Source of the DNA: Desulfurobacterium pacificum
GTDB lineage: Bacteria > Aquificota > Aquificia > Desulfurobacteriales > Desulfurobacteriaceae
Assembly (NCBI RefSeq): GCF_900182835.1
Contig: NZ_FXUB01000001.1
Location: 248,001-312,000 of the forward strand
Length of the DNA stretch: 64,000 bases
Direction: 5' to 3'
Shown here: positions 35,051-47,519 of the stretch, one piece after another
Layout of the letters: every line of letters begins with the position of its first letter
Numbering within the stretch: the first letter of the stretch is position 1
The notes under the pieces: generated by a model
Seen by the model: the letters and a program-made list of their open reading frames with translations, nothing else
What the model was told of the DNA's origin: nothing
Databases searched by the model: none
Program-made: the position numbers and the translations under genes

Positions 35051-35526
35051 GTTGAAACGCCCTGAAAACCGAAAGGGATTGCGACACAATATGAAGCAAA
35101 TATATCAATCAATCTTTAATCAGATAGTTGAAACGCCCTGAAAACCGAAAGGGATTGCGACTGAAATCCTTTCGTTGTTATCCATTTGCTTTTGCTAGTT
35201 GAAACGCCCTGAAAACCGAAAGGGATTGCGACTGAAATCCTTTCGTTGTTATCCATTTGCTTTTGCTAGTTGAAACGCCCTGAAAACCGAAAGGGATTGC
35301 GACTGAAATCCTTTCGTTGTTATCCATTTGCTTTTGCTAGTTGAAACGCCCTGAAAACCGAAAGGGATTGCGACAGATAAGAAAGAGAAGCTTTTTGACC
35401 TGAAAATAGAGGGAAAGTTGAAACGCCCTGAAAAATGGAAGGGATGTTTTTTCAAGGGGGGAATTTGAGGGGAAACAGGTTCCCCTCCTCAATATTGCTT
35501 GCCCTAAAAATGGAAAGGATTGCAAC
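35051..35526 (+). CRISPR. CRISPR array 1: five 35-bp repeats, a truncated repeat and a decayed one
   Basis: Repeats (start GTTGAAACGCCC, end GGGATTGCGAC) lie at 35051, 35127, 35198, 35269 and 35340. A 29-nt truncated repeat at 35417-35445 carries the array 2 central sequence, and a decayed repeat lies near 35494-35526. Spacers are 41, 36, 36, 36 and 42 nt. Spacers 2, 3 and 4 are identical (start TGAAATCCTTTCG). The repeat differs from the array 2 repeat at positions 8, 19, 20 and 22. Confidence 0.98.
35446..35526 (+). repeat. Palindromic tail unit of array 1 shared with array 2
   Basis: After the truncated repeat comes GTTTTTTCAAGGGGGG, a stem-loop (GAGGGGAA and TTCCCCTC around ACAGG) and a decayed repeat (GCCCTAAAAATGG...). 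The same order and similar sequence follow array 2 at 47443-47519, so both array ends derive from one ancestral unit. Confidence 0.8.
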
Positions 35527-35663: not shown

Positions 35664-38342
35664 ATGTCAGAGGATTTAGAAATAATAACTTTGGCAGCTC
35701 TGTTACACGACCTTGGCAAAGTAAAACAAAGAATGGAAAAACGTGGAGCTCATTACGAACATTCGGCTAACCTTGTCAAAAGTAAATCTTTTTCCACCTT
35801 CCTAAAAGAAGCTTTTGGTTTGGGAAATGAAGAAATCAATAAAATTGCTGATTTAGTAAGAAGACACCACGAAAACATCTCTTCCGTCAGGAAAAGAAAA
35901 GATTACGACTTGATGCTTCTCAAAAAAGCAGACGGTCTTAGCTCTGGACTTGATAGAGAATACTTTGAAGATTACGAAGAGAAAGCCGGAAACATTTCAG
36001 ACCCTATAATCTCCGTGTTTTCAGAAATCAGCTATGAAACTAAAGTTTTAACTCCAGAAGAGTTAAATTCTCTACTTAGATATGAAGTTAAAGCTTTATC
36101 TCCAGAGTCAGCATATCCAAAATCCAAAGAAGAAGTTGAAGTAGAAGCTGACGACTATAAAGAAATCTGGGGAAAGTTTATTGAAGAGTGTAAAAAAATC
36201 CCCCCCTTACAAAACTCCTCCTTCAGCCAAAACCTTGACGCCTTAAAGAGCTTAATAACTAAATACTTTTGGTCTGTACCCTCATACACTTACCACCATA
36301 GAAAACTACCTATCCCTGACGTTCCACTAACTGACCACCTATCTACAACTGCAGCAATAGCCACTGCTTTAAAAATCTATCACGAAGAAATAGGATATGA
36401 AAACGTATTTGAACAAACAGAAGAAGAAAAATTCATACTGTTAAGCTGCGACTTCTCAGGTATCCAATCTTTCATATTTCAGGAAATAAAAGACACCAAA
36501 AAGTTTGGGGCGAAACTGTTAAGAGCAAGGTCTCTTGGAGTTTCTCTTGCAATTGAAAATGTAATAAACGAAATCATTTCTGCATTCAAAGGAAATAGTT
36601 CGTTAGTCCTTTTTAACGCTGGCGGTAAAGCTTGGCTTTTACTCCCCAACTTGAGCAATTCTGACGAGTTACTGAAAAACCTAAAAGAAAAGATAAGCAG
36701 GAAACTCCTGAAAAACTTCTACGGTGAAATAAAGCTAAAGTTTGCCTACATAAAGCTAAAAGAGCAGGAACTACAAAAAGAGAACTATCAAGAAAAGATA
36801 AAAGAGCTTTTCAAGGAAGAACAAAAACAAAGGTTTAAGCTGCTTGACAAGTGGATTTTTTCCAAAAATACCGCAGCGCAAAAACAGTTTTTAGAAAATT
36901 TCTCCGATGAAGAATCGTTGTGCCCCATATGCAAACTTAGAAAAAGAGAAAAAGACTACGGAGAGGAAGAAAAAGTTTGCTCAGTTTGCTATATGTTTTT
37001 AAAAATCGGCGAAAAAATCCCCAAACTTTCCACCAAAACCAATGATGAAAAAGAAGAAAAGAAAATCATTTGCTTTAAGAAGTCCGAAAACCTGTGGCCC
37101 ATGTTTGAACTTTATAATGAGAAGGACAAAGAAAAGGCAAATGCCTGCTACTGCTACTCCTTTTCCTACAACAACTTTAATGGTTTTCCCGTTAAACCTA
37201 TGGCAAACCATATCCCTCTGATAAATAAAAAAGAATTGGAAAAAGAAGATTGGAAACTCCAAGCAATTAAAAACCTATGTTTTAGCAGCGAAAAGGATTT
37301 TAATAAGCAAGTAAAAGATGGAAATCCAAAAACTTTCTGTCATATTGGAATTGATTCTCTTTACACAGAAGGAGATACTATTTACGGAAGACCTTACCTC
37401 GGCGTTCTCAAAGCTGATGTTGATGCTTTAGGATATATATTTTCAAACGGATTCTGCAAGATAAAGGACATTAAAAAAGGCGAAAAGAAAGAATTCTCTC
37501 TTTATTCTCTATCCCGAATAGTTTACTTAAGCAGAATGATTGACTATTTCTTTTCTCAAATATTACCCGAAAAAATCCTTAAAGAGGAAAAATTCAAAAA
37601 CATTTACAGTGTCTTTGCCGGTGGAGATGACCTGTTTTTAATAGGAGATTGGTATTCCATCACATTGCTTGCCCAAAAAATCAAAGAGGAATTTGGAAAA
37701 TTCACAGGAGGCGGTATTCAAACGGAAGGACCTTCTCTTACAATCTCCATTGGAATTCACTTTTTTGACCATCACACTCCTGTATATCAGATAGCCGAAC
37801 TGGGCGAGTCAGCGCTAAAAAAAGCAAAAGAAACTGTGATAACAAATAAAAAAGGCGGAAAAGAAATCATCAGGCGAGGCAACAGTATAGTCATTCTAAA
37901 CCAATCTATCAGAGGACATAAAAAAGAAAGCCTTAAAAAACTGTTAGAAATAGCAGAAGTTCTTGAACTTTTATTGAAAGAGGATGTTCTAACTACTTCT
38001 ACTCTTTACAAAATTATGGACATTTCCTGGATGGCTAACAGAGCCATTGAAAATCCCCGTAACCTCCTCTGGAGACCTCTTGTTTACTACTTAATAACAA
38101 GAAACGCCAAACTACAAAAAGAGAAAGAAGAACAATTTAAAGAAGTATTAAACCTAAACTGGGAAGATGAAAAGGAGTTCAAAGAAAACCTCGCCAAGCG
38201 TTTTATTAAATGGATAGAAAAATACTCAGAAAACCTATCAGAAGAAGAAAAAAAGGAAAAGGATAACCTCTTTTACATACCACTTGTAATCGCCCTTTAC
38301 AGGAGGAGACGCTATGGGAAAGCAAAGTTACCAGCAACATAA
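35664..38342 (+). CDS. csm1: Type III-A Cas10/Csm1 (HD nuclease and cyclic oligoadenylate synthase)
   Basis: An 892-residue large subunit of the Csm interference complex. The N-terminal HD domain is intact (His15-Asp16 in LLHDLGKVKQR), predicting single-stranded DNA cleavage. A four-Cys zinc motif (CPIC about residue 419, CSVC about 20 residues on) lies between the two Palm domains. The GGDD motif of the cyclase (FAGGDDLFLIGDW, about residue 652) is intact, predicting synthesis of cyclic oligoadenylate from ATP when target RNA is bound. An ATG follows AGGGG. It overlaps csm2 by 29 bp and opens the cas operon. Confidence 0.97.
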   Translation: MSEDLEIITLAALLHDLGKVKQRMEKRGAHYEHSANLVKSKSFSTFLKEAFGLGNEEINKIADLVRRHHENISSVRKRKDYDLMLLKKADGLSSGLDREYFEDYEEKAGNISDPIISVFSEISYETKVLTPEELNSLLRYEVKALSPESAYPKSKEEVEVEADDYKEIWGKFIEECKKIPPLQNSSFSQNLDALKSLITKYFWSVPSYTYHHRKLPIPDVPLTDHLSTTAAIATALKIYHEEIGYENVFEQTEEEKFILLSCDFSGIQSFIFQEIKDTKKFGAKLLRARSLGVSLAIENVINEIISAFKGNSSLVLFNAGGKAWLLLPNLSNSDELLKNLKEKISRKLLKNFYGEIKLKFAYIKLKEQELQKENYQEKIKELFKEEQKQRFKLLDKWIFSKNTAAQKQFLENFSDEESLCPICKLRKREKDYGEEEKVCSVCYMFLKIGEKIPKLSTKTNDEKEEKKIICFKKSENLWPMFELYNEKDKEKANACYCYSFSYNNFNGFPVKPMANHIPLINKKELEKEDWKLQAIKNLCFSSEKDFNKQVKDGNPKTFCHIGIDSLYTEGDTIYGRPYLGVLKADVDALGYIFSNGFCKIKDIKKGEKKEFSLYSLSRIVYLSRMIDYFFSQILPEKILKEEKFKNIYSVFAGGDDLFLIGDWYSITLLAQKIKEEFGKFTGGGIQTEGPSLTISIGIHFFDHHTPVYQIAELGESALKKAKETVITNKKGGKEIIRRGNSIVILNQSIRGHKKESLKKLLEIAEVLELLLKEDVLTTSTLYKIMDISWMANRAIENPRNLLWRPLVYYLITRNAKLQKEKEEQFKEVLNLNWEDEKEFKENLAKRFIKWIEKYSENLSEEEKKEKDNLFYIPLVIALYRRRRYGKAKLPAT

Positions 38343-38775
38343 ACAGAATAGAAATTCAAATTACAACGAAGAAATAAAGCGTAAAGTCGCATCTTTAGTA
38401 AAAGATTTTCTGAATGGCTCTTACCAAACCAAAGCGGAGATAATAAGAAAAAAACTTCAAGAAGAAATCGTTGAAGCTATGAAAAACGAAGGGAAAAATA
38501 AACCGTCAAAACATCAAATAAGACGTTATTACCACTATTTACTTGAAGTAGCAGAAGAATCTTCAAAATCTGCAGCAATGAAAATAGCTTTAGTAAAGGC
38601 TTATATAAACTACGATGCAAATAGGAATCAGATAAAAAGCCGATATTTCAAAGCTTTCATAGAAGAAATAGTTGACAACATCCTTTCTGAAAAAGATTCT
38701 GAAAAAATACTTAACAAACTTAAAGATTCTCTTGTTCTCTTTGAGGCACTCGTTGGATATACTGCTGATTTTTAA
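38314..38775 (+). CDS. csm2: Csm2, small subunit of the type III-A complex
   Basis: A 153-residue, highly charged, mostly helical protein (KPSKHQIRRYYHYLLEVAEE and KAYINYDANRNQIKSRYFKAF) matching the small-subunit family Csm2, whose copies line the backbone beside Csm3 in the interference complex. Family members are typically 120-160 residues. The start lies inside csm1 and is preceded by a GGAGGAG site within csm1. The presence of Csm2 rather than Cmr5 supports subtype III-A. Confidence 0.9.
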   Translation: MGKQSYQQHKQNRNSNYNEEIKRKVASLVKDFLNGSYQTKAEIIRKKLQEEIVEAMKNEGKNKPSKHQIRRYYHYLLEVAEESSKSAAMKIALVKAYINYDANRNQIKSRYFKAFIEEIVDNILSEKDSEKILNKLKDSLVLFEALVGYTADF

Positions 38776-38796
38776 TATGAAGGTAAGGGGGAAGTT

Positions 38797-39549
38797 ATGA
38801 AAAAACTAAAGAAAATCCTCTTAATTAACGGCAAGATTAAACTTCTTACAGGTCTTCACATAGGCTCAGGAGATAGTCAGATTCAAATAGGAGGTATAGA
38901 CAATCCTGTAGTTAAAGACCCTATTTCACAAGAACCTTACATTCCCGGTTCTTCCCTAAAAGGAAAGATGAGACACCTTTTAGAACTCTATTACGGATTT
39001 TTTAGTCCTGATGGTAGTCCTTCAAGTGCAAAAATTCTCAATGACAACGATGAAAACGGTCTTAACATATTAAAGTTGTTCGGTATTTCCGGTGCAGATA
39101 CCAACGAAGAGGAAGTAAAAGAAAAGATAAAAGAAAAAAACATTACACCTACAAGGTTATCGTTCTACGACTTAAAGTTATTTAACGCTGAAAAACTTAG
39201 AAAAGTAAGTCCGCTTATGACTGAAGATAAAGCAGAAGTGAGAATAAATAGAATAACTGGAACCGGAGAACACCCAAGACATACAGAAAGAGTTCCTGCC
39301 GGCGCAGAATTTGAGTTTAAACTTGCACTTAAAGTTTTTGAAGACGATAACGAAGAAGCTTTTAGCAAACTTTTAGGAGAAGGTTTAAAACTAATTGAAG
39401 CCGATTCACTTGGTGGCAGCGGTTCACGAGGTTATGGAAAAGTTAAATTCCACATAGAAGAGGTAACTTCAGTTATTGGAGAGAAGGAAAGTGATATCTG
39501 GAAAAGCTTCAAGGAACAATTCAAAGAGGCAACAGATGGAAACCATTAA
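38797..39549 (+). CDS. csm3: Csm3, RAMP backbone subunit and target-RNA endonuclease
   Basis: A 250-residue Cas7-family protein that forms the helical backbone and cuts bound target RNA at 6-nt intervals. Visible are LLTGLHIGSGDSQIQIGGID, in which the catalytic Asp region is retained, YIPGSSLKGKMRHLLELYYG and the glycine-rich C-terminal GGSGSRGYGKVKF. The gene follows csm2 after 21 bp with an AAGGGGG ribosome site and overlaps csm4 by 14 bp. Confidence 0.95.
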   Translation: MKKLKKILLINGKIKLLTGLHIGSGDSQIQIGGIDNPVVKDPISQEPYIPGSSLKGKMRHLLELYYGFFSPDGSPSSAKILNDNDENGLNILKLFGISGADTNEEEVKEKIKEKNITPTRLSFYDLKLFNAEKLRKVSPLMTEDKAEVRINRITGTGEHPRHTERVPAGAEFEFKLALKVFEDDNEEAFSKLLGEGLKLIEADSLGGSGSRGYGKVKFHIEEVTSVIGEKESDIWKSFKEQFKEATDGNH

Positions 39550-40498
39550 AATTACGTTAGAGCCGGAAACGTCTTTCATAACCCCACTGCAAAGCGATAC
39601 GCTATTTGGTCAATTCTGCTGGTTGTACTTTTACCTTTACGGAAAAGAAAAATTGGAAGCGCTTTTGGAAGATTTTGATGAAAATCCGTTTATAGTTTTT
39701 TCTGATGGTTTACCGGAAGGTTTTTTACCAATGCCCCAAATGGTATACTCTAAAGAAAGCGAAGACGTTATAATTTACAAGAAATTCAAACAATTTAAGA
39801 AATTTAAATTTGTTGAGAAAAACCTGCTTTTAAGCGCCAAAACTCCTGATTCTCTGTTTAAAAAGTTTCTCTCCCTGCCCGATAAACAATCCATCGAAAA
39901 CTATTTCCTCGTTTCCCCCTGGAAAAAGCAATCCTTTTTCAGAGTTTCCATTGATAGGCTTACTGGAACGGCAAAGAAAGGTCTTTTATTTGAAAATCAA
40001 GAATTTTTTGCTGGATACATAGATAAAGAGAAGGAAAAGCGCTTTAAAGTGGAAATTCATGCAAGGTTTAACCCTGATAGAATAAAGTTTGAGCAGATTA
40101 AAAAAATCTTTGAAGCAATCGGTGTAGTGGGATTCGGAGCAAAAAGAACCTGGGGAAAAGGAAAGTTTAAGATTGTTAGCATTAAAAAGGAAGAATTCAA
40201 AGAACCTGAAAACAGTAAAACGTTTATTTCTCTTTCAACAGGACTTCCAAAAGAGGAAGAAATAGAAGACTTTTACGCAGAGTTTTTTACGAAATATCCA
40301 AAGCACCCTAACGATATCAACAGCAAGTCTGTTTTTAAAGCTCCAATCGTTTTAACAAAAGCAGGCTCTATTTTTAAAGCCTCAGAGAAAAAGAAAATAT
40401 ATGGAATGAGTTTCAACATTTCTAAAAAGCCAGAGTTTAGCAGCTTTATACATAGTGCGAAAATCCTACCACTCTTTTTGGAGTTTGAACCATGGTAA
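39536..40498 (+). CDS. csm4: Csm4, RAMP subunit that caps the crRNA 5' end
   Basis: A 320-residue Cas5-like RAMP protein that recognises the repeat-derived 5' tag and contacts Cas10. Characteristic segments are KITLEPETSFITPLQSDTLF near the start, FFRVSIDRLTGTAKKGLLFE in the middle and VGFGAKRTWGKGKFKI, the glycine-rich loop. The frame runs upstream to 39476, but the ATG at 39536 begins the conserved strand and sits behind AGAGGC. It overlaps csm5 by 7 bp. Confidence 0.93.
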   Translation: METIKITLEPETSFITPLQSDTLFGQFCWLYFYLYGKEKLEALLEDFDENPFIVFSDGLPEGFLPMPQMVYSKESEDVIIYKKFKQFKKFKFVEKNLLLSAKTPDSLFKKFLSLPDKQSIENYFLVSPWKKQSFFRVSIDRLTGTAKKGLLFENQEFFAGYIDKEKEKRFKVEIHARFNPDRIKFEQIKKIFEAIGVVGFGAKRTWGKGKFKIVSIKKEEFKEPENSKTFISLSTGLPKEEEIEDFYAEFFTKYPKHPNDINSKSVFKAPIVLTKAGSIFKASEKKKIYGMSFNISKKPEFSSFIHSAKILPLFLEFEPW

Positions 40499-41787
40499 AG
40501 CTAAAACCCGTTGAATATGAAGTTACCATAACTGTAAAATCCCCCTTAGCTATCACAACAGGAGAAAGTTACTACCTGACAGATTACGCTTTAAAAGATG
40601 GTTGCTTATTTGTATTAGATTCCAACGCTTTTGCTGAATATTTATCACGAAAAGGAAAACTTTACACCTTCATTAATTTACTTACCTCAAACGTTCAAAA
40701 CCTTGAAAAGGTAAGAACTTTTATTGATGAAACCTTTGACTTAGGTTTTGAAAGTTTAAAAAGTAACTCCCTTAAAATAGAATGCGACCCTAAAGCCTGG
40801 GAAAATCTAATAACAGGAGAAAGAAAAAGAGAAATTAGGAAAATTTTTAGGAACCAGTTTGACGCTGAAAAGAAACCTTACATTCCTGGTTCTACCATAA
40901 AAGGAGCCATAAGAAATGCTCTTGAAACTAAACTCTTACTTAACGCTTTAAAAGAAATAGACAAGGAAACTCTTCCATTCCTTTTTGAAGAACTCAATAA
41001 ATTTCTAAGGGAAAGAAAAAAGTCGGAAGAGATTTTAAACCGATTGGAAGATATGTGTGTTACTATCAGAGAGCTTCTACAAGCCGAAGCTAAAGTTGAA
41101 TGTATAAAAAAAACTGCCGAAAAATCAAAGAAAGAAATAGATGATAAAAAAATCATAAAGATTTTTGATTCATTGGTAGAAAGGGCGTTGCAAAAGGATT
41201 TCAGACAGAAAATAACAGAAATTTTTAAAAAGCATTCAAAAAAACCACCCCCAACAGCAAAAGATTTAATGCGTTTTATAAAAGTGTCTGATTTTCAAAT
41301 GGAGAAAGGAGAAGTTAGAATAGGGCATCCTGAAAACTCTAAAATGGGCGACGATGTCAAGATATTCACTGAATATGTAGCTCCAGGTGCAAAATTCAAA
41401 GGTAGTATAACCATATATAAAGGCGCAGAAAATCTGTTTGAATCTTTAGAGCTGAATTTGACTATAGAATTAATAGTTGAAGCTCTTAAAACTTTTGCTT
41501 CAAAAACCTATTCTTTAGAAAGAAATAAAAAACTCATACCTCAAAACTGGAAACTCAAAGTCCCTCCAGACTACAAAAACTCTCCTAACAAGAGCCTTTT
41601 AAAGTTAGGTTTCCACGCTGGAGCTTTATCAAAAACTGTGGGAGAAGAACATTTAAGAGCAATTCTTATTCGCAAAAAAGGACGAAAAGTAAAATATGAG
41701 AATTACCCATCATCTACCTGGCTTTTGAACGGAAAACCCATGGGCTGGTGCTTATTAGAGGTGAGGAAAAGAGAAAATGCCAATTAA
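40492..41787 (+). CDS. csm5: Csm5, RAMP subunit at the crRNA 3' end
   Basis: A 431-residue Cas7-like protein that caps the 3' end of the backbone. YEVTITVKSPLAITTGESYY at the N-terminus and the RAMP motif PYIPGSTIKGAIRNALETKL are clear. A long, Lys/Glu-rich helical insertion follows (about residues 155-255). The C-terminal part contains KLGFHAGALSKTVGEEHLRA, typical of Csm5. It overlaps csm4 and cas6 by about 10 bp each, so translation is probably coupled. Confidence 0.93.
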   Translation: MVKLKPVEYEVTITVKSPLAITTGESYYLTDYALKDGCLFVLDSNAFAEYLSRKGKLYTFINLLTSNVQNLEKVRTFIDETFDLGFESLKSNSLKIECDPKAWENLITGERKREIRKIFRNQFDAEKKPYIPGSTIKGAIRNALETKLLLNALKEIDKETLPFLFEELNKFLRERKKSEEILNRLEDMCVTIRELLQAEAKVECIKKTAEKSKKEIDDKKIIKIFDSLVERALQKDFRQKITEIFKKHSKKPPPTAKDLMRFIKVSDFQMEKGEVRIGHPENSKMGDDVKIFTEYVAPGAKFKGSITIYKGAENLFESLELNLTIELIVEALKTFASKTYSLERNKKLIPQNWKLKVPPDYKNSPNKSLLKLGFHAGALSKTVGEEHLRAILIRKKGRKVKYENYPSSTWLLNGKPMGWCLLEVRKRENAN

Positions 41788-42568
41788 GCTTTTGCTGAAG
41801 TTTCAAGCTGACAAGAAAATCCCCACATCAAGTTTAAAGCCCAAAACAATTCATGGAATATTTTTCTCCTTGTTTCCCGAAAACGTCGGAGAAATTTTCC
41901 ACACTCCTTCAGTTAAACCATTTTCTCTTTTTTACCCCGTTTACTTCAAATCACCAAGCAAAAATCAACTCTCTTTTACGGTAGAAATGAACGTCCTCAA
42001 TAACGAACTGTTTCCTGAAATTTCACAAGTACTGTTTAGAAAAACTTTTTCAGAGAAAGCACCAGTCGCAAATGTTGATGGAGTGGAAATTGAGTTAACT
42101 ACTGTGAAAGCCAAAGATGTTACAACTTTTGAATCTTTAATGGCAAAAGCCAAACCTTTAAAAGAATTGATATTTGACTTCGTGACACCTACAACCTTTA
42201 AGAAAGGACGTTACGATTACGTTTTACCAGAACCTTACCTCGTGTTTAAAAGCCTACTAAACAGATGGAACGCTTTTTCTCCGATTAAAATTTCTGGTAA
42301 AGAGTTACTTCCATTCGTTAAAGAAAATGTTTTAATTTCTGGCTGCTGGATAAAAACCAAAAAGACAGAACTGATGAATGGAGCAAAAATAACAGGTTTT
42401 AGCGGAAGAGTTTTCTTTTATGCAGCAAAATTTGATGAAGAAAAGTTAAAAATACTCAACGCCCTTTCGCGCTTTGCCGAATTTGCCGGCGTCGGGAGAA
42501 AAACAACAATGGGATTCGGAAAAGTGAAACTGGCACAGAAAAGAGAAGGAGATGAACAGGACGTTTAA
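41777..42568 (+). CDS. cas6: Cas6 CRISPR repeat endoribonuclease
   Basis: A 263-residue protein with two ferredoxin-like folds. The C-terminal glycine-rich loop GVGRKTTMGFGKVKL is the Cas6 hallmark, and His26 in KTIHGIFFSLF is a candidate catalytic residue. It cuts the precursor crRNA within repeats. As the only Cas6 in the window, it must process transcripts of both arrays even though their repeats differ at four positions, if both are used. It overlaps csm5 and the downstream CARF nuclease gene. Confidence 0.93.
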   Translation: MPIKLLLKFQADKKIPTSSLKPKTIHGIFFSLFPENVGEIFHTPSVKPFSLFYPVYFKSPSKNQLSFTVEMNVLNNELFPEISQVLFRKTFSEKAPVANVDGVEIELTTVKAKDVTTFESLMAKAKPLKELIFDFVTPTTFKKGRYDYVLPEPYLVFKSLLNRWNAFSPIKISGKELLPFVKENVLISGCWIKTKKTELMNGAKITGFSGRVFFYAAKFDEEKLKILNALSRFAEFAGVGRKTTMGFGKVKLAQKREGDEQDV

Positions 42569-43700
42569 GGTAATGGTTTCGCCTGTCTCCACGCAAGTGT
42601 TTCCCGTTGTTGTAACAGCGCTAACGATAAGACCTGAAAGGGTTGTTCTACTCACAACTCCAAAAGTAGAAATTTTCACCAAGTTAATCAAAAGGGCGTT
42701 ACTTTTTGCTGGAATAGAAGTTGAAGAGAGAAATATCAATCCTTATTCTTTTAACTCCATTAAAGAAAAAACGAAAGATTTACAAAATCCTTTTTTACTT
42801 CTTAACTGCGGGACAAAATTTACAGCGATTGCTCTTTTCAGATTATTCGGCGAAGAAAACGCTTATTACTACACTCCAGAGGGAAAGATAATTGATTTCA
42901 ACAGTAACCTTTTGGAGAAAGTCTCTCAAAAACTTGTAGATGTTGAACTTCACTCTCAAATGTACGGTTTTGAAATCGTTGAAGAGAGGCAGGACCACGA
43001 AAAAATAAGAATGAGAGAAAAACTAACACGATACATCGCCTCTAAACCATCTTTATTGCCTGTTCTTACAAAACTTTACCTAAAAGGTTCTGCACGGATT
43101 TTACCCAACGAGTTTGCTGGTTTAGCAAAAAAGTTTGAAGTTGTTGTTTATAGGGGCGGAAAATACGTCGTTCTTGATAGAGAATACATCGGTGGAAAGT
43201 GGCTTGAAGAGTTTACGTTCTTAGAACTTCTGAAAAAGAACTTTTATGACGTGAGAATAGGAGTAAAGGTTGAATGGTACGAAAAAGGGGTAATTAACGA
43301 AATAGACGTTATGGCAACAAAGCATAATCAACTTCATATCTTTTCCTGCAAAACTGGAAAAAACGTAAAAGAAATAGCTAAACACCTTTACGAACTTGAA
43401 GAACTAACAGAAAGGATTGGGGGAGATTTTGGGAAAAGCTTTCTCGTGATAACGGAAAACATTTACGTGAAATCACCCCCACGGAGAGAAGACTTTCCAA
43501 ACGCCCCTTCTGTTCCTTATAAGGTTGCTCCCTCTACCTGGAATGAGTATTACAAAACGGAAGAAGGCCAGAGATTCAAAAAACTATTTCGGATATACAA
43601 TTCGTTTAAGTACCTTCACAAAAGAGCAAGTTTGCTTGGCATAGAAATACTAACTCCCGAGATACTTAAGAGAAATTTAGGAGGAAGAAGTGGCGCTTAA
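42552..43700 (+). CDS. can2: Can2/Card1-like CARF nuclease (DUF1887 type)
   Basis: A 382-residue effector. The N-terminal half is a CARF domain (VSPVSTQVFPVVVTALTIRP; LLLNCGTKF at 82-90). After a helical linker comes a PD-(D/E)XK nuclease domain: GGKWLEEFTFLELL (214-227), NEIDVMATK (Glu250, Asp252) and HIFSCKTGK (Lys267). Characterised relatives are switched on by cyclic tetra-adenylate and degrade RNA and/or DNA. It takes the place of Csm6, which is absent here. The ATG overlaps cas6 by 17 bp, and the gene overlaps the membrane CARF gene by 11 bp. Confidence 0.93.
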   Translation: MNRTFKVMVSPVSTQVFPVVVTALTIRPERVVLLTTPKVEIFTKLIKRALLFAGIEVEERNINPYSFNSIKEKTKDLQNPFLLLNCGTKFTAIALFRLFGEENAYYYTPEGKIIDFNSNLLEKVSQKLVDVELHSQMYGFEIVEERQDHEKIRMREKLTRYIASKPSLLPVLTKLYLKGSARILPNEFAGLAKKFEVVVYRGGKYVVLDREYIGGKWLEEFTFLELLKKNFYDVRIGVKVEWYEKGVINEIDVMATKHNQLHIFSCKTGKNVKEIAKHLYELEELTERIGGDFGKSFLVITENIYVKSPPRREDFPNAPSVPYKVAPSTWNEYYKTEEGQRFKKLFRIYNSFKYLHKRASLLGIEILTPEILKRNLGGRSGA

Positions 43701-44511
43701 GACAGGACTTAAGCAGGCTTTTATTTCTCAGTTTGGATTCCTTTTCAAAAACTGGGGAATTGCTCTTATTTCAGCTGGTATTTTCCTTGTACTATCGTTG
43801 ATTGCTGGATGGTTCCCCGATGGTTGTTCTATGCTTTTAAATGAAGAAACCAGAACACAGGGATTAAAACTCGTTAGTACTTCAGTTGTATTACTTTTAT
43901 CTTTAGTTGTTTTAGGGCGAATCCTATATTCACCCCTTAGATTCGATGTGGATGCTGATAAACCTCGGAAAAAGAAAGTTTTAATCTGGTTCTTGAGTAA
44001 ACCCTGGGGAACGAAAGAGGAAGTGGAACAAGACGTTAGAAAAGTTAGCGAAATGGCTAATAACCTAAACATTCAAGATATAAAGGAAGCTGTTAATGGT
44101 TTAAAAATCAAAAACTGGCGAATGGCTTTGGATGCGATTGAGTATCACATTCCTAAACTGGAAAGAGTTATTGTTATAACTTCACAAGAATCAGAAACTT
44201 ATTTTGATTTGTTTAAAGATTTTATTAAAGTCGTTTTCGGTAAAACATTTTCTGTGGAAAAGTTTGCTACTGTTGATTTTGAGAATGGAGAAGAACTTAT
44301 AAAAATTCTCGATGAGAAGCTCTTCCAGTTCTTAAAATGTTTAGGTTATAAAGATAGAGAAGTAATTGTTGATGTTACTGGCGGTCAAAAAACGATTTCT
44401 ATCGTAGGTGCAATCTTAACAGTTACCAATTTTGATAGAGAGTTCCAGTACGTATCTACTAATAACTACGATATAAAATCATTCAACGTGAGGTTAGTTA
44501 CAGATGATTAG
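43690..44511 (+). CDS. Membrane-anchored CARF protein with two transmembrane helices
   Basis: A 273-residue protein that I can name only by architecture. Two hydrophobic helices (about 22-42 and 61-80) are joined by an 18-residue loop. A cytoplasmic region follows that starts with a CARF-like first strand (KKKVLIWFLSK, 94-104) and contains VIVITSQES and DVTGGQKTIS (228-237), the ligand-loop type motif of CARF domains. No nuclease motif is seen. It may be a cyclic-oligoadenylate-gated membrane effector comparable to Cam1, whose characterised member has one transmembrane helix. The start is GTG (43690), overlapping can2 by 11 bp, and the stop overlaps csx3 by 8 bp. Confidence 0.8.
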   Translation: MALKTGLKQAFISQFGFLFKNWGIALISAGIFLVLSLIAGWFPDGCSMLLNEETRTQGLKLVSTSVVLLLSLVVLGRILYSPLRFDVDADKPRKKKVLIWFLSKPWGTKEEVEQDVRKVSEMANNLNIQDIKEAVNGLKIKNWRMALDAIEYHIPKLERVIVITSQESETYFDLFKDFIKVVFGKTFSVEKFATVDFENGEELIKILDEKLFQFLKCLGYKDREVIVDVTGGQKTISIVGAILTVTNFDREFQYVSTNNYDIKSFNVRLVTDD

Positions 44512-44803
44512 GTTTTCCAAAAAAGAAATTCTCAACGGAGAAGCAGTTTTAGTAGAGTTTGAAATTGAAGACGGAGTAACCACTCCAAAAGAAGCCTTTA
44601 GCGTTGAACTTCCTCCTGTTCCATATGGAAAAGGAGTAATTTTAAGCGGCAGAGGTCCTATTTGGTTCTACGGCAGGCTTATCCATCACTTTCATCCTGC
44701 TAAATGGGTTGCTGTTTTTGACCCAAGAATTGGAGCTGTTGTGGTTCAGTCACATACAAAAGAGATAAGGGAGGGGGACGTAATAGAATTTATGGAGAAA
44801 TAA
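44504..44803 (+). CDS. csx3: Csx3 (Crn3) cyclic tetra-adenylate ring nuclease
   Basis: A 99-residue protein with the unmistakable Csx3 core RGPIWFYGRLIHHFHPAKWV followed by FDPRIGAVVVQSH. His61, Asp73 and the C-terminal His84 are the candidate active-site positions. Studied Csx3 proteins form head-to-tail filaments around cyclic tetra-adenylate and cleave it in a manganese-dependent way, ending the alarm signal. Here it directly follows two CARF effectors and overlaps the upstream gene by 8 bp, an arrangement that suggests balanced production of effector and off-switch. Confidence 0.93.
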   Translation: MIRFSKKEILNGEAVLVEFEIEDGVTTPKEAFSVELPPVPYGKGVILSGRGPIWFYGRLIHHFHPAKWVAVFDPRIGAVVVQSHTKEIREGDVIEFMEK

Positions 44804-45741
44804 TGAAGGGCTACCTTTTTGTGACAACTCCAGGAGCATGCATCTCACGAAAAGGTAACGTCCTAATAGTAGAAACAACAGAAAGGAAAACTCAAATACC
44901 GATAGGTATTATCAAGCATGTATTTCTGTTCGGAACAGTTAACATTACTGTTCCTGCGATAAGACTCCTTTCTTCAAGAGGAAAGTTTGTATTTCTTTTA
45001 AATCGATACGGAAGGCTCGTTAGCGTTGTTTATCCAGAATTTTTCGGAAGCGATAATAACATTAGAATGAACCAATACTTAACCTTTAGCAATGAAGAAA
45101 GAAAAATAGCAATAACAAAAGAACTTCTGCAAAGAAAATTAGAAGTAACAAAGTTGGTTATCTACAATCTTTACGCTTCCAGAAACTTGAAACCAGAAAA
45201 TCTCAATGAGTGGGCTGAAGGAATAAGGGCTTCTATACTTTCTGCTGAAAACCTCCAGTCTCTTCTGGGAATTGACGGGAACATAAGCAGATACCTTTAC
45301 GGGAAATTTTCCTCTTTTAACGAAAGCCCCTTTTACTTTGAAAGGCGGGAATATTATCCACCACCTGACCCAGTTAACGCTTTGCTTAGCTTGAGCTTCT
45401 CAATTTTTTACTCAATCATGCACCCGCTGGTGCTTTCTTTTGGTTTTGACCCTTACCTGGGATTTTTCCATATAAGGAGAGGAAAACACGCTGCCCTTTG
45501 TTCTGATGTTATGGAAATTGTCAGACCGCGCCTTGCCGAGTTCGTTTTTACAGCTTTGAATGATGAGTTTTTTGAGGAGGGGGATTTTTCAAAGGACAAA
45601 GGAGGAATGTTTCTTAGAACTGAAGCTCTTAAATCTTTTGTTAAACTTTTTTCAGACGTTGTAATTCACGGTAAAGACGAAGCTTTTATGTCAGAAGTAA
45701 TAGCTTTTCTTAACTGGTTAAAGGAAGAGGTCAAAAAATGA
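44803..45741 (+). CDS. cas1: Cas1 integrase with Asp in place of the conserved catalytic Glu
   Basis: A 312-residue spacer-integration nuclease with an N-terminal beta domain and a helical catalytic domain. The metal-site segments are visible: LLGIDGNISRYLY (Asp158 where nearly all Cas1 proteins have Glu), GFFHIRRGKHAAL (His223) and SDVMEIVRP (Asp235/Glu238). Asp may still bind metal. It starts 1 bp into the csx3 stop and overlaps cas2 by 4 bp. It is a plain Cas1 with no reverse transcriptase fusion. Confidence 0.95.
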   Translation: MKGYLFVTTPGACISRKGNVLIVETTERKTQIPIGIIKHVFLFGTVNITVPAIRLLSSRGKFVFLLNRYGRLVSVVYPEFFGSDNNIRMNQYLTFSNEERKIAITKELLQRKLEVTKLVIYNLYASRNLKPENLNEWAEGIRASILSAENLQSLLGIDGNISRYLYGKFSSFNESPFYFERREYYPPPDPVNALLSLSFSIFYSIMHPLVLSFGFDPYLGFFHIRRGKHAALCSDVMEIVRPRLAEFVFTALNDEFFEEGDFSKDKGGMFLRTEALKSFVKLFSDVVIHGKDEAFMSEVIAFLNWLKEEVKK

Positions 45742-46010
45742 GATACCTAATTACATACGACATTTCGGAAGACTCTGTAAGAAACAAACTAATAAAGTTT
45801 TTAAACGAATACGGTAAAAGAGTGCAGTTTAGCTGCTTTGAAATAGAAGCAAGTAAAATTCAACTCGCTGATTTAATTAAAAAGATTGACGACTTAATAG
45901 ACAAGGAAACTGACAAAGTGTTCTTTTTCCCCATTAGCGACTATGCTGCCCCTTTTGTTAGAAAGTTAGGAAAAAACGCCGATGAAGATAATCCCAACGT
46001 GGTGCTATGA
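45738..46010 (+). CDS. cas2: Cas2 (first of two)
   Basis: A 90-residue protein of typical Cas2 length with the first strand MRYLITYDIS containing the conserved Asp, and VQFSCFEIEAS in the second strand. It is the structural partner that bridges two Cas1 dimers during spacer capture. It overlaps cas1 and the second cas2 by 4 bp each (ATGA). The sequence is clearly different from the second copy, so the pair is not a recent duplication. Confidence 0.93.
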   Translation: MRYLITYDISEDSVRNKLIKFLNEYGKRVQFSCFEIEASKIQLADLIKKIDDLIDKETDKVFFFPISDYAAPFVRKLGKNADEDNPNVVL

Positions 46011-46330
46011 GGTTACCTAAAAGGATAAAAAGATTTGTAGTAGCCTATGACGTTTGCGTTAAAGATGATTCGTATGTAGAAAAAAGGAATTCTGCAAAGA
46101 GAAGAACTAAAATAATGAGAGTTCTCTACGACTACGGAATAAGAACGCAACTTAGCGTTTTTGAAGTGGTTCTTAAAAGCAGACAGTACGAAGAGTTAAT
46201 TGAAAGGGTGGAAAAAATTTTAAGAAAGGAAACTGACAAAGTTTACATTTACCCAATAGACGCAGGAAGTGAAAGTAAAATTGTTCGGCTCGGCAAAGAA
46301 ATAAACATTCTTGGAGATATGTTTTTGTAA
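46007..46330 (+). CDS. cas2: Cas2 (second copy)
   Basis: A 107-residue Cas2-family protein with a positively charged N-terminal extension (MRLPKRIKR) before the conserved strand FVVAYDV. It carries a Lys/Arg-rich stretch (KRNSAKRRTKIMRVLYDYG) and the usual RTQLSVFEVVL. It is longer and more basic than the first copy. The ATG overlaps the first cas2 stop. It ends the cas operon about 220 bp before array 2. Whether the two form a heterodimer is unknown. Confidence 0.9.
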   Translation: MRLPKRIKRFVVAYDVCVKDDSYVEKRNSAKRRTKIMRVLYDYGIRTQLSVFEVVLKSRQYEELIERVEKILRKETDKVYIYPIDAGSESKIVRLGKEINILGDMFL

Positions 46331-46550
46331 GATTATGGTAGAATTAAGGTTAGTTCTTTGAAAGATGAATATGGGGAAGAAGGGTTTTAAGGAGTATCAG
46401 GTTATTCTAAAATTGGAATAAACAAGACATTGCCTTACAATGCCTTAAAGGGTGTTTGGCGAAAAGTATTTCTTCGCAAGGAATTTTAGATAATTATAAA
46501 AATCCACCTACTTTGAGGCGTAAGAAAAATAATGTATAATGAAAGGTGCT
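46331..46550 (+). promoter_or_regulatory. CRISPR leader of array 2 with promoter
   Basis: No gene is visible. The region is homologous in scattered blocks to the array 1 leader (TTCTTTGAAA, ACATTGCCTTACAATGCC, TTTGGCGA) and ends in an almost identical 17-base segment. TATAAT at 46535-46540, with TTGAGG at 46513-46518 (16-bp spacing), sits 10 bp before the first repeat. Confidence 0.75.
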
Positions 46551-47519
46551 GTTGAAATGCCCTGAAAAATGGAAGGGATTGCGACCTCCCGTGATTTGTT
46601 TTGGACGTTCAGGAAAAGTCCTGGTTGAAATGCCCTGAAAAATGGAAGGGATTGCGACAACTGAGAGCGGCAAGGTTTCTCACCACTCTTGTTGAAATGC
46701 CCTGAAAAATGGAAGGGATTGCGACAACTCTCCGGCAAAATAATCGTACCTGAGAGGCCTGTCCGCACGTTGAAATGCCCTGAAAAATGGAAGGGATTGC
46801 GACACTTTCGCCAGAGTCCAGAAAAGCAATAAAAGGTCTAAGTCCTCCTCATCCCTCAGTTGAAATGCCCTGAAAAATGGAAGGGATTGCGACGAGTTTC
46901 TTCAGCAGTTCGTTCAGCAGTTGCTGCTGCTGCGGCGTGTTGAAATGCCCTGAAAAATGGAAGGGATTGCGACAATAGAACTCCCTCTGGGGATTTTTCT
47001 GATGATGATAACTATTCTTTGTTGAAATGCCCTGAAAAATGGAAGGGATTGCGACACGGGAGTACTTATTAGTAGTCCTTCAGAAACTCCGAGAGACCCC
47101 CGTTGAAATGCCCTGAAAAATGGAAGGGATTGCGACGCCCTCCCTGTGCAGCTTTCTTACCACCTCAAGCCAGCAGTTACGCCGGTTGAAATGCCCTGAA
47201 AAATGGAAGGGATTGCGACACTACTTCCCCCGCAGTTCTTTCTTTCCTCCGAAGTGCGTGTTGAAATGCCCTGAAAAATGGAAGGGATTGCGACTCTCAT
47301 CTCTACCCTCCTTTCAGTTAGTTTTTTTTGTTTGTTGAAATGCCCTGAAAAATGGAAGGGATTGCGACAACAAGGAATTCTCCAAAGTTCATTATTCGCC
47401 TCCAATATAAGATGTTGAAATGCCCTGAAAAATGGAAGGGATGTTTTTTTCAAGGGGGGAGTTTAAGGGGGGAACCTGTTCCCCCCTCACTATTGCTTGC
47501 CCTGAAAAGTGGAAGGGAT
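46551..47519 (+). CRISPR. CRISPR array 2: eleven 35-bp repeats, a truncated repeat and a decayed one
   Basis: Repeats (start GTTGAAATGCCC, end GGGATTGCGAC) lie at 46551, 46624, 46691, 46769, 46859, 46939, 47021, 47102, 47185, 47260 and 47334. A 29-nt truncated repeat is at 47414-47442 and a decayed one near 47492-47519. The eleven spacers are all different and range from 32 to 55 nt, which is a wide spread. Their composition is more G+C-rich than the surroundings. The leader is on the left, so spacer 1 is the newest. Confidence 0.98.
47443..47519 (+). repeat. Palindromic tail unit of array 2 shared with array 1
   Basis: This is the counterpart of 35446-35526: GTTTTTTTCAAGGGGGG, a stem-loop (GGGGGGAA and TTCCCCCC around CCTG), then TATTGCTTGCCCTGAAAAG, a decayed repeat. 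The stem is kept although its bases differ from those of the array 1 copy. Confidence 0.8.

Follow-up and report, generated by a model that had tools for sequence, protein, structure and literature searches.

A type III-A CRISPR array of Desulfurobacterium pacificum with spacers predominantly antisense to genes of mobile elements

We report that a CRISPR array of Desulfurobacterium pacificum (array 2), located in the 64,000-nucleotide stretch of genomic DNA analysed here (the window), very probably serves as the guide array of an adjoining type III-A system, with spacers that are mostly antisense to plasmid or virus genes and a strand bias that results from the retention of transcript-matching spacers. 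Antisense selection of these spacers, proposed earlier from the bare sequence (the sequence-only reading), is supported by strand composition, by codon statistics and by the antisense orientation of all 15 protospacers that we could map.

Results

A complete type III-A locus precedes array 2

Gene content shows that a complete type III-A locus adjoins array 2. All of its genes lie on the plus strand, beginning with Cas10 (Csm1; 35664..38342), which has both the HD domain (motif at residue 15) and the palm domain (GGDD at residue 653), as in other type III-A systems. Csm2, Csm3, Csm4 and Csm5 follow in one operon (38314..41787), the arrangement of a type III-A effector, and then Cas6 (41777..42568), a CARF-PDDEXK nuclease (Card1/Can2-like) and a CARF-transmembrane effector (42552..44511), Csx3 (44504..44803), and Cas1 (312 residues, without a reverse transcriptase fusion) with two consecutive Cas2-family genes (44803..46330). 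The last two are different members of the family, arranged in tandem directly 3' of Cas1 (45738-46330). With these genes present, cyclic oligoadenylate signalling to the CARF effectors is a putative activity of the locus. No reverse transcriptase (PF00078) was detected anywhere in the 1.59 Mb genome, as would be needed for an RT-Cas1 type III system, and no type I Cas3 scored above the curated cut-off, so that nothing points to a type I partner acting on DNA.

Array 2 (46551..47442, plus strand) comprises 11 intact 35-nt repeats (GTTGAAATGCCCTGAAAAATGGAAGGGATTGCGAC) and one degenerate terminal repeat at 47414, with 11 spacers of 32-55 nt each. Because the 3' end of the repeat, ATTGCGAC, is handle-like, the degenerate repeat lies at the right end and a rightward sigma-70-like promoter site (TTGAGG-16-TATAAT; 46513..46540, plus strand) sits at the leader end just left of the first repeat, we take the plus strand to be the predicted crRNA strand, an assignment that is well founded. 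A TATAAT is also found 5' of the first repeat of array 1.

Family spacers are strongly biased towards one strand

The crRNA strand of array 2 is pyrimidine-rich, its purine fraction averaging 0.411 (p = 0.0009, random strand flips). Since host coding strands are purine-rich (0.554), spacers antisense to genes should show a low purine fraction on the crRNA strand. The same lean was found in 186 spacers from relatives (crRNA-strand purine 0.423; none of 200,000 sign flips as extreme) and in two more arrays of the D. pacificum genome, 3 and 4, which lie outside the window, belong to the repeat family of array 2 and lean in its direction, with mean purine fractions of 0.408 (sign-flip p = 0.004) and 0.387 (p = 0.08, six spacers), respectively. 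Counting against the antisense rule is spacer 2 of array 3, which carries a Shine-Dalgarno sequence and ATG (SD-ATG) in the sense direction. Over the whole family set, 218 unique spacers of array 2's repeat family from 16 Desulfurobacteriaceae genomes, the purine fraction on the crRNA strand was below one half in 171 spacers and above it in 35.

Codon statistics agree with composition. A codon model trained on the genes of the window, which assigned 86% of held-out 41-mers correctly and returned 54% for a simulated 50/50 mixture, estimated that 83% (77-90%) of the family spacers are antisense, or 86% (79-92%) once plasmid genes were added. Compared with dinucleotide shuffles, antisense strands were also the more open (208 versus 179 +/- 5), though purine-rich strands should carry more stops, and three-base periodicity was stronger on the antisense strand than on the other.

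Array 1 (35051..35451, plus strand) consists of five variant repeats, three distinct spacers, of which one is triplicated, and a degenerate last repeat; the triplicated spacer occurs as three identical tandem copies at 35127-35339, a repeat-spacer duplication. It had been described as showing no clear antisense preference, and its last spacer does look sense (log-likelihood ratio, LLR, -5.7), but with only three distinct spacers the array is uninformative on strand.

Two further features of the spacers were noted. Inverted repeats with perfect stems of at least 7 bp occur inside 21 of the 218 family spacers, compared with 4.8 in shuffles and with expectations of 11.6 from the plasmid pTHEAM01 described below and, where prophage or viral DNA is the source, of 6-8; examples are spacer 2 of L022 array 4, spacer 2 of L026, spacer 1 of L059 and spacer 1 of array 3, and hairpins of this kind should hinder the guide. 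Spacer 3 of L028, from the relative G011, is the complement of a tRNA-like 3' half whose last position is the discriminator base. Self-targeting was rejected in this case, as the sequence occurs only in its own array among the genomes searched; absent elsewhere, the target is possibly a viral tRNA.

Mapped protospacers are antisense to genes of a conjugative plasmid

A weak 75% match, obtained when the spacers of D. pacificum were compared by blastn with 61 related genomes, led to pTHEAM01 (NC_014917.1), a 76,561-bp contig of Thermovibrio ammonificans HB-1 (G009), a relative within the Desulfurobacteriaceae. pTHEAM01 is an F-type conjugative plasmid that encodes TraC, TraU and TraK. A nucleotide search against it returned 13 spacers at E <= 1e-3, compared with one reversed control, and comparison at the peptide level added spacer 4 of array 2, spacer 1 of array 4 (ssb) and spacer 7 of L028 (TraC); a match of spacer 2 of L027 was set aside owing to low complexity. 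Every one of the 15 spacers that match pTHEAM01 or encode close homologues of its proteins is antisense to annotated genes, the sites being antisense to an annotated CDS except for one that is antisense to a ribosome site just upstream. If both strands were equally likely, the probability of this outcome would be 3e-5, or 2e-4 without three ribosome-site matches, and it is clearly the opposite of protospacers falling equally on both strands or in non-coding DNA. The D. pacificum spacers concerned are spacer 4 of array 2, spacer 11 of array 3 and the ssb-matching spacer of array 4.

The upstream flanks of 12 diverged protospacers match the repeat tag at only 0-4 of 8 positions, in line with the self-avoidance of type III-A systems. 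Judged by the strand statistics and the homologous protospacers, the crRNAs would be complementary to transcripts of the invader, as is likewise characteristic of type III-A. Ten of the 15 mapped protospacers lie in the ssb / Rad52 / AAA module of pTHEAM01 (68000-76400). This clustering could arise because early-expressed genes enter first, or merely from better conservation there.

Within array 2, spacer 4 (46804..46858) encodes RDEEDLDLLLLFWTLAK on its reverse complement (minus strand), an in-frame homologue of EDEDDLALLLLLWSFAK in THEAM_RS09700, and its crRNA is accordingly oriented antisense to the THEAM_RS09700 mRNA. The alignment covers only 17 residues and scores 58, compared with a maximum of 48 in 1,500 shuffles. 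THEAM_RS09700 is a 46-codon gene on the minus strand of pTHEAM01 (74396-74536), and the region of its stop codon matches a spacer found in a different genome.

Exact protospacers were found for no spacer of array 2 among phages, plasmids, IMG/VR, GTDB and related genomes. By blastn, the spacers of all four arrays of this genome had no protospacer in 50,697 phage or 72,556 plasmid records and no strong full-length match outside arrays in the 61 related genomes, and a first batch of relatives' spacers had none in the phage records. IMG/VR contained no match to degenerate codon patterns of array 2 spacers 3, 11, 4 and 8, GTDB genomes contained none to that of spacer 3, and relatives of a prophage terminase contained no convincing protospacers. 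The plasmid-specific proteins were not detected in the other relatives searched and had no close match in IMG/VR.

Reading frames and ribosome sites in array 2 spacers

The ribosome sites with start codons reported for two spacers are present as quoted: the crRNA of spacer 10 (47295..47333, minus strand) is complementary to AAAGGAGGGTAGAGATG, containing AGGAGGG-TAGAG-ATG, and that of spacer 11 (47369..47413, minus strand) to GGAGGCGAATAATGAACTTTGGAGAATTCCTTGTT, containing GGAGG-CGAATA-ATG-AAC and encoding MNFGEFLV. The frames described in four other spacers fared less uniformly. Spacers 7 (47056..47101, minus strand) and 9 (47220..47259, minus strand) do have antisense frames that end in ...SEFLKDY-stop and ...KKELRGK-stop, with a weak LLR of +0.5 and a moderately antisense LLR of +2.5, respectively, but the stops themselves have no independent support. 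The protein-like readings QQQQLLNELLKKL and CWLEVVRKLHREG of spacers 5 and 8 likewise exist. The codon model favours the antisense frame TPQQQQLLNELLKKL of spacer 5 (46894..46938, minus strand; LLR +1.5) but does not back spacer 8 (47137..47184, given no strand), which has a pyrimidine-rich crRNA strand yet scores as sense with host codons (LLR -4.7) and close to neutral on rescoring with plasmid genes added (-0.2).

Alternative explanations

Relatives in which no type III effector was detected bear on how the bias arises. The arrays of G002 and G011 are biased like the others, though neither Cas10 nor RAMP proteins were found there, and the estimated antisense share (theta) is 0.87 for spacers of genomes without detected Cas10 (n = 51) and 0.86 for those of genomes with it (n = 167). 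In these two genomes, type III effector selection leaves the bias unexplained unless the drafts lack the effector or its loss is recent. In G002, contig 10 (L121, 4995-13319; L050) carries an array after cas6, a Card1-like gene, a CARF-TM gene and cas1, with housekeeping genes (uvrB-like, TPR, DUF507) upstream, where Cas10 and Csm genes would be expected; this genome, 98% complete, gave no Cas10 or RAMP match.

One explanation of equal bias in both groups is that it is set at acquisition, by a Cas1-Cas2-Cas2 machinery that has no fused reverse transcriptase and yet takes up spacers preferentially in the orientation complementary to mRNA. Besides the theta values, the second Cas2-family gene adjoining Cas1 and Cas2 and a bias stronger than the 65% average of type III systems (PMC8482600) speak for it, yet we hold it to be unlikely: the D. 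pacificum genome has no reverse transcriptase, a search of 21 relatives found the enzyme in just one, and unselected spacers of Thermus come from both strands (PMC7515739). Moreover, G002 is a draft, so that its effector may have escaped assembly or been lost not long ago, and it retains Cas6, the Card1-like and CARF-TM proteins and Cas1, while the G011 contig ends beside the array, with a Csx1/Csm6-like gene. The corresponding claim for the family, that the RT-free adaptation module of the Desulfurobacteriaceae itself orients or selects mRNA-complementary spacers, with the bias persisting without detected Cas10, appears to us slightly less probable again. Retention of transcript-matching spacers after uptake remains the reading that we prefer.

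The sequence-only reading had also suggested that several array 2 spacers are placed over start or stop codons. Spacers might preferentially cover translation starts, or starts and stops, if such sites were accessible or if acquisition favoured transcript ends, but we give this little credence, as the counts are those to be expected when antisense positions in compact plasmid or phage genomes are drawn at random. Strict SD-ATG sites occur in array 2 in spacers 10 and 11 only (2/11), both antisense (p about 0.01-0.07 by base rate), and across the family in 10 of 218 spacers in the antisense direction (4.6%) compared with 3 in the sense direction. The corresponding rate in antisense 41-mers is 3.0% for pTHEAM01 and 4.9% for the prophage region of T. 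ammonificans; a related virus gives 2.2%, and four more viral contigs range over 0-5.5%. With one exception, these pieces of related DNA, whether plasmid, prophage or viral, have a background of 1.4-5.5%. With the observed rate inside this range, antisense sampling of gene-dense elements suffices. Annotated starts are spanned by 2 of the 15 protospacers and a stop by 1, against 8.4% expected for either, a weak excess, and conserved ribosome-site sequences favour the detection of such protospacers. A ribosome-site consensus, GGAGGTGGAAGATG, is repeated before several genes of pTHEAM01, so that one start-site spacer partially matches many starts.

Although composition by itself cannot separate the two readings, it is most improbable that the asymmetry is purely compositional, with pyrimidine-rich strands chosen whatever the genes, given the orientation of all 15 mapped sites relative to annotated genes, one of them on the opposite plasmid strand in an oppositely oriented gene, and the stronger three-base periodicity of the antisense strand.

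Discussion

In the scheme that we favour, transcription of array 2 would run rightward from the leader, and the transcript would presumably be processed by Cas6, as suggested by the repeat and the gene content, into crRNAs starting ATTGCGAC. As most spacers are antisense to invader genes, these crRNAs could pair with invader mRNA, upon which Cas10 would fire and activate the CARF effectors. Cas1-Cas2, working without a reverse transcriptase, probably takes spacers from DNA in either strand. Type III effectors sense RNA, so that a spacer must be antisense to a transcript in order to protect, and the transcript-matching spacers would be kept because the others give no protection. Spacers over start codons would then be the share expected from random antisense positions on gene-dense elements.

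Antisense bias is a known and expected behaviour of type III systems, best explained by the survival of transcript-targeting spacers. In a survey of type III spacers, 65% on average match the coding strand, letting crRNAs pair with mRNA (Vink et al., 2021; PMC8482600). The spacers described here share this ability in a different lineage, at 83-86% by codon statistics and in 15 of 15 cases on one plasmid. In type III systems of Thermus thermophilus, both strands contributed spacers in the absence of selection, and it was selection that produced the strong bias (Artamonova et al., 2020; PMC7515739). D. pacificum resembles Thermus as a thermophile with a conventional Cas1-Cas2 and transcript-complementary spacers, and selection is the explanation in both, but the Thermus work rests on phage experiments, whereas ours concerns natural arrays, with a conjugative plasmid as the one mapped target, for which we infer selection. 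Transcript-directed immunity is likewise shared with the RT-Cas1 type III system of Marinomonas, where a reverse transcriptase fused to Cas1 allows spacer uptake from RNA (PMC5576922); the genome of D. pacificum lacks such an enzyme.

A special placement over start codons, had it held, would have been the more surprising result. What is new here is the lineage, the little-studied Desulfurobacteriaceae, the unusual strength of the bias and the F-type conjugative plasmid family as target, and in these arrays spacer orientation can be read from composition where protospacers are missing. D. pacificum thereby offers a clean natural case of strong mRNA-strand bias in a deep-branching vent thermophile with a type III system without reverse transcriptase, and through this strong RT-free bias and its identified target plasmid the lineage lends itself to the question of acquisition versus selection.
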